DNA of 45,034 nt from Protoeuglena noctilucae (lineage: Eukaryota; Chlorophyta; Pedinophyceae; Marsupiomonadales; Marsupiomonadaceae). The notes beneath the pieces are model-generated. The model was not told where the DNA came from and made no database searches. It was given only the letters and a program-made list of their open reading frames with translations. The position numbers and the translations under genes were made by a program. Positions 4,779 through 5,490 of the stretch are shown here, one piece after another (positions within the stretch are counted from its first letter, which is position 1; the number at the start of each line of letters is the position of its first letter). The stretch is from contig OY253691.1 in assembly GCA_958009085.1 (NCBI GenBank), forward strand, positions 1-45,034. The letters run 5' to 3'.

Positions 4779-5490
4779 ATGTTTCAACGTTTTGTATACT
4801 CGACCAATCATAAAGATATTGGAAGCATGTATCTTCTGTTTAGAGCCTTCTCCGGAAGACTTGGAACCAGAAGATCTCTACTCATTCGAAGAGAGCTGAG
4901 ATTTCCCGGAGACCAAATTCTCGGCGGAAATTATCAGTTTTATAATGTACTTATTACCGCTCATAGAATTCTTATGATTTTTTTTATGGTGATGCCCGCT
5001 CTGATGGGAGGATTTGGGAATTGGTTTGTTCCTATGATTCTCGGCGCTCCCGACATGAGATTCCCTCGGCTTAACAATGTATCCTTCTGGCTTCTGCCTC
5101 CAGCACTTCTGCTACTTCTCTCTTCAAGATTTGTCGAAGGAGGAGCGGGAACCGGGTGGACGGTGTATCCTCCTCTAAGTACCGGAAGAAGTCATTCAGG
5201 AGGAGCTGTCGATCTGGCGATCTTTAGTTTTCATGTTTCGGGAGCTTCGAGTATTCTAGGTTCGATGAATTTCATCAGAACCATTCTCAATATGCGTCCT
5301 AGAGGAATGACCCTGAGGCGAATGCCTCTGTTTAGATGGAGAATGCTTATTACTAGAATTCTTCTGATTACCTCTCTTCCCGTGTTCGCCGGAGCGATTA
5401 CCATGCTTCTGACGGACCGAAATTATAACACCACGTTTTTCGACCCTGCGGGAGGAGGGGATCCAGTTCTCTACCAGCATCTCTTTTGGT
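4779..5490 (+). CDS. cox1: Cytochrome c oxidase subunit 1, exon 1
   Basis: This encodes residues 1-237 and the first base of codon 238 of the haem-copper subunit of Complex IV. It starts [20 protein letters not shown]. The code evidence is decisive here: ATT CGA AGA GAG CTG AGA reads I-R-A-E-L-A, and GAC ATG AGA TTC CCT CGG reads D-M-A-F-P-R, so CGN is Arg and AGA is Ala. Conserved [17 protein letters not shown] and [18 protein letters not shown] are present. The exon ends TTTTGG-T before GTGCG; joining to exon 2 restores W-F-F-G-H-P-E. Upstream is a hairpin-rich spacer. Confidence 0.97.

Follow-up and report, generated by a model that had tools for sequence, protein, structure and literature searches.

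AGA and AGG as alanine codons in the mitochondrial genome of the pedinophyte Protoeuglena noctilucae, a variant code published in 2025

The window, that is the whole stretch of DNA that was analyzed, is 45,034 bp long with a GC content of 38.96%. The genome to which it belongs comprises 26 contigs and 26.3 Mb; the window is contig C25, and the plastid contig (C26) measures 100,950 bp. Gene models were obtained for 16 of the 17 protein genes reported in the available text of PMC12574857, with rpl6 missing. The genes and introns referred to below are as follows.

4779..5490, + strand: cox1 exon 1
5491..8201, + strand: cox1 intron 1, group II, with a maturase-like ORF continuing the exon 1 frame (Rfam match 7921-8005)
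8202..8773, + strand: cox1 exon 2
8774..11481, + strand: cox1 intron 2, group II, with a reverse transcriptase/maturase ORF (Rfam match 11349-11481)
11482..11799, + strand: cox1 exon 3, containing GL[AGG]GMPRR
12397..14358, + strand: nad5, 54 AGA and 10 AGG codons
19718..19997, + strand: cox3 exon 1
19998..23116, + strand: cox3 intron, group II, with a reverse transcriptase/maturase ORF (Rfam match 22742-22823)
23117..23727, + strand: cox3 exon 2
24261..24641, + strand: rpl14, containing RV[AGA]DNSG, first in-frame terminator TTA
24837..25853, + strand: nad1, 32 AGA and 0 AGG codons, first in-frame terminator TTA
32058..33230, + strand: cob, first in-frame terminator TTA
33673..34962, + strand: nad2, 51 AGA and 6 AGG codons, first in-frame terminator TTA
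40605..41306, + strand: nad6, start uncertain, first in-frame terminator TTG
42682..43428, + strand: cox2, first in-frame terminator TTA, one AUA at the Met column of F-M-P-I-V-V-E

The rpl6 gene was not identified, and the ORFs at 17894-18847 and 14433-14978, like that at 1754-2788, had no Pfam match over the cut-off when translated with the standard code. Lineage-specific ORFs, all of them with AGR codons, were found at 292-1143, 1700-2791, 3124-4107, 14433-14978 and 17894-18847. The large subunit rRNA gave a single Rfam match at 27008-30099 covering positions 1-2925 of the model, which describes its overall span; the pedinophyte rnl is reported in two pieces in the available part of PMC12574857.

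In the 16 protein genes (4,681 codons) AGA and AGG together were counted 353 times, CGN 132 times and GCN 278 times. Based on cox1 at 4779-5490 and on other genes, the initial annotation had claimed that AGA and AGG stand at alanine positions, and in all 11 motifs which it quoted the codon was verified to be in frame at the named residue. These motifs are IR[AGA]EL[AGA], DM[AGA]FPR and GL[AGG]GMPRR in cox1; TL[AGA]ERK, LF[AGA]ISS and GEY[AGA]N in nad1; ES[AGA]VGL in nad4L; KAG[AGA][AGA]PFH in nad2; RV[AGA]DNSG in rpl14; and FF[AGA]AFFW and TW[AGA]HK[AGA]TLAG in cox3.

The initial annotation had also proposed that the AGR columns be tabulated against homologues. The products of nad5, cox1 and nad1 were aligned with database proteins with AGR masked, and the answer was therefore not presupposed. 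The homologues of each gene were the best 120 of 8000 scored, giving 360 over the three genes. Seventeen of these (6 for nad5, 2 for cox1 and 9 for nad1) had Arg in over 15% of the AGR columns and were excluded, and each codon was scored for the 20 residues over the columns of the remaining 343 (114, 118 and 111, respectively). Alanine was the best of the 20 residues for both codons. For AGA (108 columns) it exceeded Arg by 204 bits, Ser by 70 and Gly by 137, and for AGG (13 columns) it exceeded Arg by 33 bits and Ser by 16.5. The mean weight of Ala was 21.8% in the AGA columns and 30.3% in the AGG columns; a control of 2000 random sets of 108 non-AGR columns gave a mean of 6.6% and a maximum of 13.8%. 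Only AGA and AGG deviated from the standard code, every other codon with at least two usable columns recovering its standard residue; TGC, with a single column, scored Ala. Alanine made up 70% or more of 80 columns, and these were written as GCN in 49 cases, AGA in 14, AGG in 3 and other codons in 14. The AGA columns were more variable than the GCN columns (Ala weight 22% versus 51%), so many AGR sites say little individually, and the Ala score summed over the AGA columns was -10 bits against background, yet still the best of the 20. A comparison with the single best PDB match was made for the AGR sites of cox2 (18), cob (15) and nad4 (21), and these 54 sites lay opposite Ala in 12 cases, Ser in 11, Leu in 6, Thr in 4, Arg in 2 and other residues or gaps in 19.

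Conserved arginines were encoded by CGN, as had been claimed: of the 26 columns in which Arg reached 70% or more, 25 were CGN and one was ACT, while none was AGR. It is extremely unlikely that AGR has its standard meaning of arginine and matches alanine columns by chance. The 17 proteins with Arg at many AGR columns, which would speak for arginine among the 360 best-listed homologues, include P0005 and P0249, two entries of UniRef/nr under the name Marsupiomonas sp. NIES 1824, with Arg at 42 of the 54 nad5 AGA columns and at 16 of the 32 nad1 AGA columns. Since alanine was predicted for AGR in Marsupiomonas by Turmel et al. 2020 (PMC7748506), these entries look mistranslated. The 17 excluded proteins are near relatives that were apparently translated with the standard code, and with them included the test would be circular, in favour of arginine. 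The public protein entries of relatives show Arg where Ala is meant, and a naive column test would call AGR arginine. After the exclusion the mean weight of Arg was 1.1% in the AGA columns and 0.4% in the AGG columns, which placed it 16th of the 20 residues for both codons. Arginine would also be in keeping with the UCU anticodon, that of a tRNA-Arg, and with two of the 18 cox2 AGR sites (residues 55 and 63), which are the only ones among the 54 to lie opposite Arg in the best PDB match; it would, however, change the catalytic YADD of two intron maturases to YRDD.

Another small residue at AGR, be it serine as in invertebrate mitochondria, glycine as in ascidians or a mixture of these with alanine, is very unlikely. 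Serine was second to alanine for both codons with 11-12% of the column weight, and neither Arg nor Ser dominated the AGR columns. In the PDB comparison Ser was about as frequent as Ala, its count coming mostly from nad4. The share of Ser in the GCN columns is, however, equal (10.7%), which looks like ordinary exchange between Ala and Ser, and the tRNA with the UCU anticodon does not have the long variable arm of tRNA-Ser. Ala moreover leads Ser by the 70 and 16.5 bits given above for AGA and AGG, and Gly is 137 bits behind for AGA. The claim that both AGR codons stand for alanine is borne out by the alignment columns and by this tRNA.

Twenty tRNA genes were found in the window. One has the anticodon UCU, the only Leu anticodon is UAG, and trnW(cca) is present; there is no gene for Thr, for UUR or for CGN among the 20, and the only one of Arg type is tRNA(UCU). 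The readers of AGR and GCN are the following.

26942..27013, + strand: tRNA(UCU), reader of AGR, acceptor GGGCACA/TGTGTCC
37363..37436, + strand: tRNA-Ala(UGC), reader of GCN, with G1:C72, G2:C71, G3:U70 and A73

The 5' end of tRNA(UCU) is GGGCACA and its 3' end is TGTGTCCA, which gives G1:C72, G2:C71, G3:U70 and A73. This microhelix, three acceptor pairs and A73, is the same as that of tRNA-Ala(UGC), whose pairs were read by hand with the acceptor in the usual register leaving T8-A9. G3:U70 is the main alanine identity pair and A20 is an arginine identity element of tRNA; position 20 of tRNA(UCU) is U. In sequence identity tRNA(UCU) is closest to trnK (75%), trnI (72%) and trnV (70%), and only 64% identical to trnA. 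The combination of G3:U70 and A73 was rejected as sufficient proof of alanine, since it is also present in trnP(UGG) at 35358-35430, which has C1:G72 and A2:U71 and whose CCN codons fall clearly on Pro columns.

In the same genome, all three tRNA-Arg genes that were found for the plastid carry A20, combined in the plastid tRNA(UCU) with G3:C70 (all read by eye). Of the psaB AGA codons, residues 19 and 668 lie opposite Arg in the best PDB match and residue 302 opposite Gln; rbcL was uninformative as a plastid control, having a single AGA in its coding part, and psaB was used instead. Based on G3:C70 in the plastid tRNA(UCU) and on the two of three psaB codons, AGA appears to be read differently in the mitochondrion and the plastid of one cell, and in the plastid it looks like Arg.

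The window is almost certainly the complete mitogenome of Protoeuglena noctilucae (Marsupiomonadales), the pedinophyte endosymbiont of Noctiluca, in which AGA and AGG are translated as alanine by a tRNA(UCU) probably charged by alanyl-tRNA synthetase and arginine is written CGN. Direct support comes from the codon columns, the sequence of tRNA(UCU), the lack of AGR at conserved arginines and the contrast with the plastid. Having the alanyl-tRNA synthetase microhelix (G1:C72, G2:C71, G3:U70, A73) and no A20, tRNA(UCU) would be charged with alanine, would escape arginyl-tRNA synthetase and would read both AGR codons by wobble at U34. The tRNA for the CGN codons that specify arginine is not encoded in the window and would have to be imported. 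On sequence grounds AGR reads as alanine, and a minor share of arginine at AGR may occur.

UUA and UUG were not found among the 4,681 codons of the 16 genes, a count which is zero partly by construction because each model stops where UUR first occurs; ten genes reach UAA or UAG without any UUR. UUR is reached before a standard stop in six genes, as UUA in five and UUG in one. As a stop the UUA in nad1 is equivocal, being aligned with a column that is mostly Leu; the stretch that follows, CACCGCTGGTGAATGA, is repeated a short way downstream and again after nad2, like a spacer. An mtRF1a-like nuclear gene on contig C19 carries HRVQRVPDTIKADKVQTSAAAV, versus a different 22-residue stretch in the RF1 of contig C17. 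Its codon-recognition motif (G000:C19; L003, L006) is PDTIKADKVQTS, which replaces a different 12-residue stretch. The C19 gene would encode the mitochondrial release factor, and its altered motif fits both the altered mtRF1a described in the available text of PMC12574857 and the use of UUR as stop codons.

AUA was present eight times in the 16 genes and was not found in nad5, cox1 or nad1. The two AUA codons of cox2 disagree, one being at a Met column in five of the five chains shown and the other at a Val column in five of five. An exon-by-exon search, which can miss exon-split nuclear genes, located PF01171 (TilS-type) on the plastid contig C26 alone. The same search did not match cytosolic Ncs6/Ctu1, a member of PF01171, and it thus indicates the nuclear absence of a TilS-type protein only weakly. 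The restriction of PF01171 to the plastid contig argues weakly against a lysidine-modified tRNA-Ile for AUA. Methionine has been suggested for AUA in pedinophytes in general, according to the part of PMC12574857 that was available.

The initial annotation had taken the AGR reading for an undescribed and broader reassignment. In some Sphaeropleales mitochondria, AGG was reportedly found to be reassigned to alanine by Noutahi et al. in 2019. The claim of novelty did not stand: as given in the available text of PMC12574857, Barcyte, Zihala and Elias 2025 assigned alanine to both AGA and AGG across all Marsupiomonadales, including the mitogenome of Protoeuglena noctilucae. The reading of AGR as alanine is genuine; it was, however, already known and published in 2025 for this genome, and there is no new genetic code. 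With two codons moved from one sense to another and one tRNA altered to match, this is a clean case of code evolution, but one that has already been published.

For Marsupiomonadales the same text reports a tRNA(UCU) with G3:U70 and A73, UUR as stops, an altered mtRF1a, trnW(cca), and no tRNA gene for UUR, Thr or CGN (with one reported exception for CGN) (PMC12574857). The window has the same alanine AGA and AGG, the same G3:U70 and A73 in tRNA(UCU), UUR at expected stops but not inside the modelled genes, and trnW(cca), and its AGR assignment does not differ in any way from the code as described there; the altered mtRF1a-like gene is on the nuclear contig C19. A third lineage in which alanine was assigned to AGR independently of the known ones, as the initial annotation had inferred, is exceedingly improbable, nothing having been found in favour of it. 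The Protoeuglena noctilucae mitogenome in the available text of PMC12574857 has 45,034 bp, a GC content of 38.96% and three group II introns, of which two interrupt cox1 and one cox3, and the plastome has 100,950 bp; the window and the plastid contig agree with these in size, and the window also has the same GC content and intron set. The UUR at gene ends, the missing trnT, the lack of a trnR for CGN and the presence of trnW(cca) likewise fit Marsupiomonadales.

Two other known codes resemble that of the window. Zihala and Elias 2019 reported, in the available part of PMC6821328, that AGA and AGG are alanine codons in some Sphaeropleales; there AGG, and in some species also AGA, is decoded by a tRNA with the anticodon CCU or UCU. 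Sphaeropleales differ in being an independent lineage and in that UCA is a widespread stop (PMC6821328, same part), whereas in the window UCA is a sense codon (13 columns, Ser best) and the UCA-stop trait of Sphaeropleales (Scenedesminia) was not found. In the plastid code of peDinoflagellates AGR is most likely alanine, with a G3:U70 pair in tRNA(UCU), according to the accessible text of PMC12574857. The differences are that this is a plastid and not a mitochondrial code and that in Lepidodinium chlorophorum the tRNA carries U at position 73 (PMC12574857, same text).

The ORFs of cox1 intron 2 and the cox3 intron matched RVT_1 and Intron_maturas2 (Pfam, standard code). Both contain RY[AGA]DDF, in which the Ala of the catalytic YADD is encoded by AGA, and for the cox1 intron 2 ORF the three reverse transcriptases displayed from the PDB have YADD at this place. 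The ORF of cox1 intron 1 has RY[AGA]DQF (YADQ), with its AGA at 7146; parts of the reverse transcriptase domain appear to be missing from this ORF. UUR is absent from both cox1 intron ORFs and occurs once in the cox3 intron ORF, as a UUA at 22507, seven codons before a UAA/UAG/UGA stop. In a pairwise comparison of the maturase ORFs (197 pairs), for which the third ORF was read from a point 11 codons too far upstream and had 2 stops masked, the positions opposite AGR were enriched against background in AGR (2.99-fold), Gly (1.72) and Ala (1.32), with Arg at 0.67. This argues against Arg at AGR and is by itself too weak for Ala. No relatives of the maturases were found in a scan of the genome contigs, and none of the titles listed in a literature search dealt with maturases following a variant code, which is weak evidence of novelty. 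From the intron maturases it seems that mobile elements, or at least these retroelements, follow the code of their host. There is about an even chance that the variant code has locked in all three group II introns, through AGA at the Ala of Y-A-D-D/Q and through avoidance of UUR except for the one near-end UUA of the third, and that the code change is a barrier to retroelement traffic out of the lineage. Two of the maturases would read YRDD in a host with the standard code.

A 15-base palindrome, CTAAACNNNGTTTAG, is dispersed over the whole window, with 16 matches at no more than one mismatch versus 0.23 expected. Its positions include 4456, 7978, 16824, 27830, 33580, 41791 and 43458; four copies are inside Rfam rRNA matches and one is in the anticodon loop of a trnI copy. 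The intact trnI(gau) is at 26168-26240, and in a second copy at 4202-4297 an insert containing the palindrome takes the place of the anticodon loop. The intron mode of ARAGORN assigned this second copy an anticodon AGA and a 21-base intron. It is probably a pseudogene, the alternative being a tRNA with a small intron.
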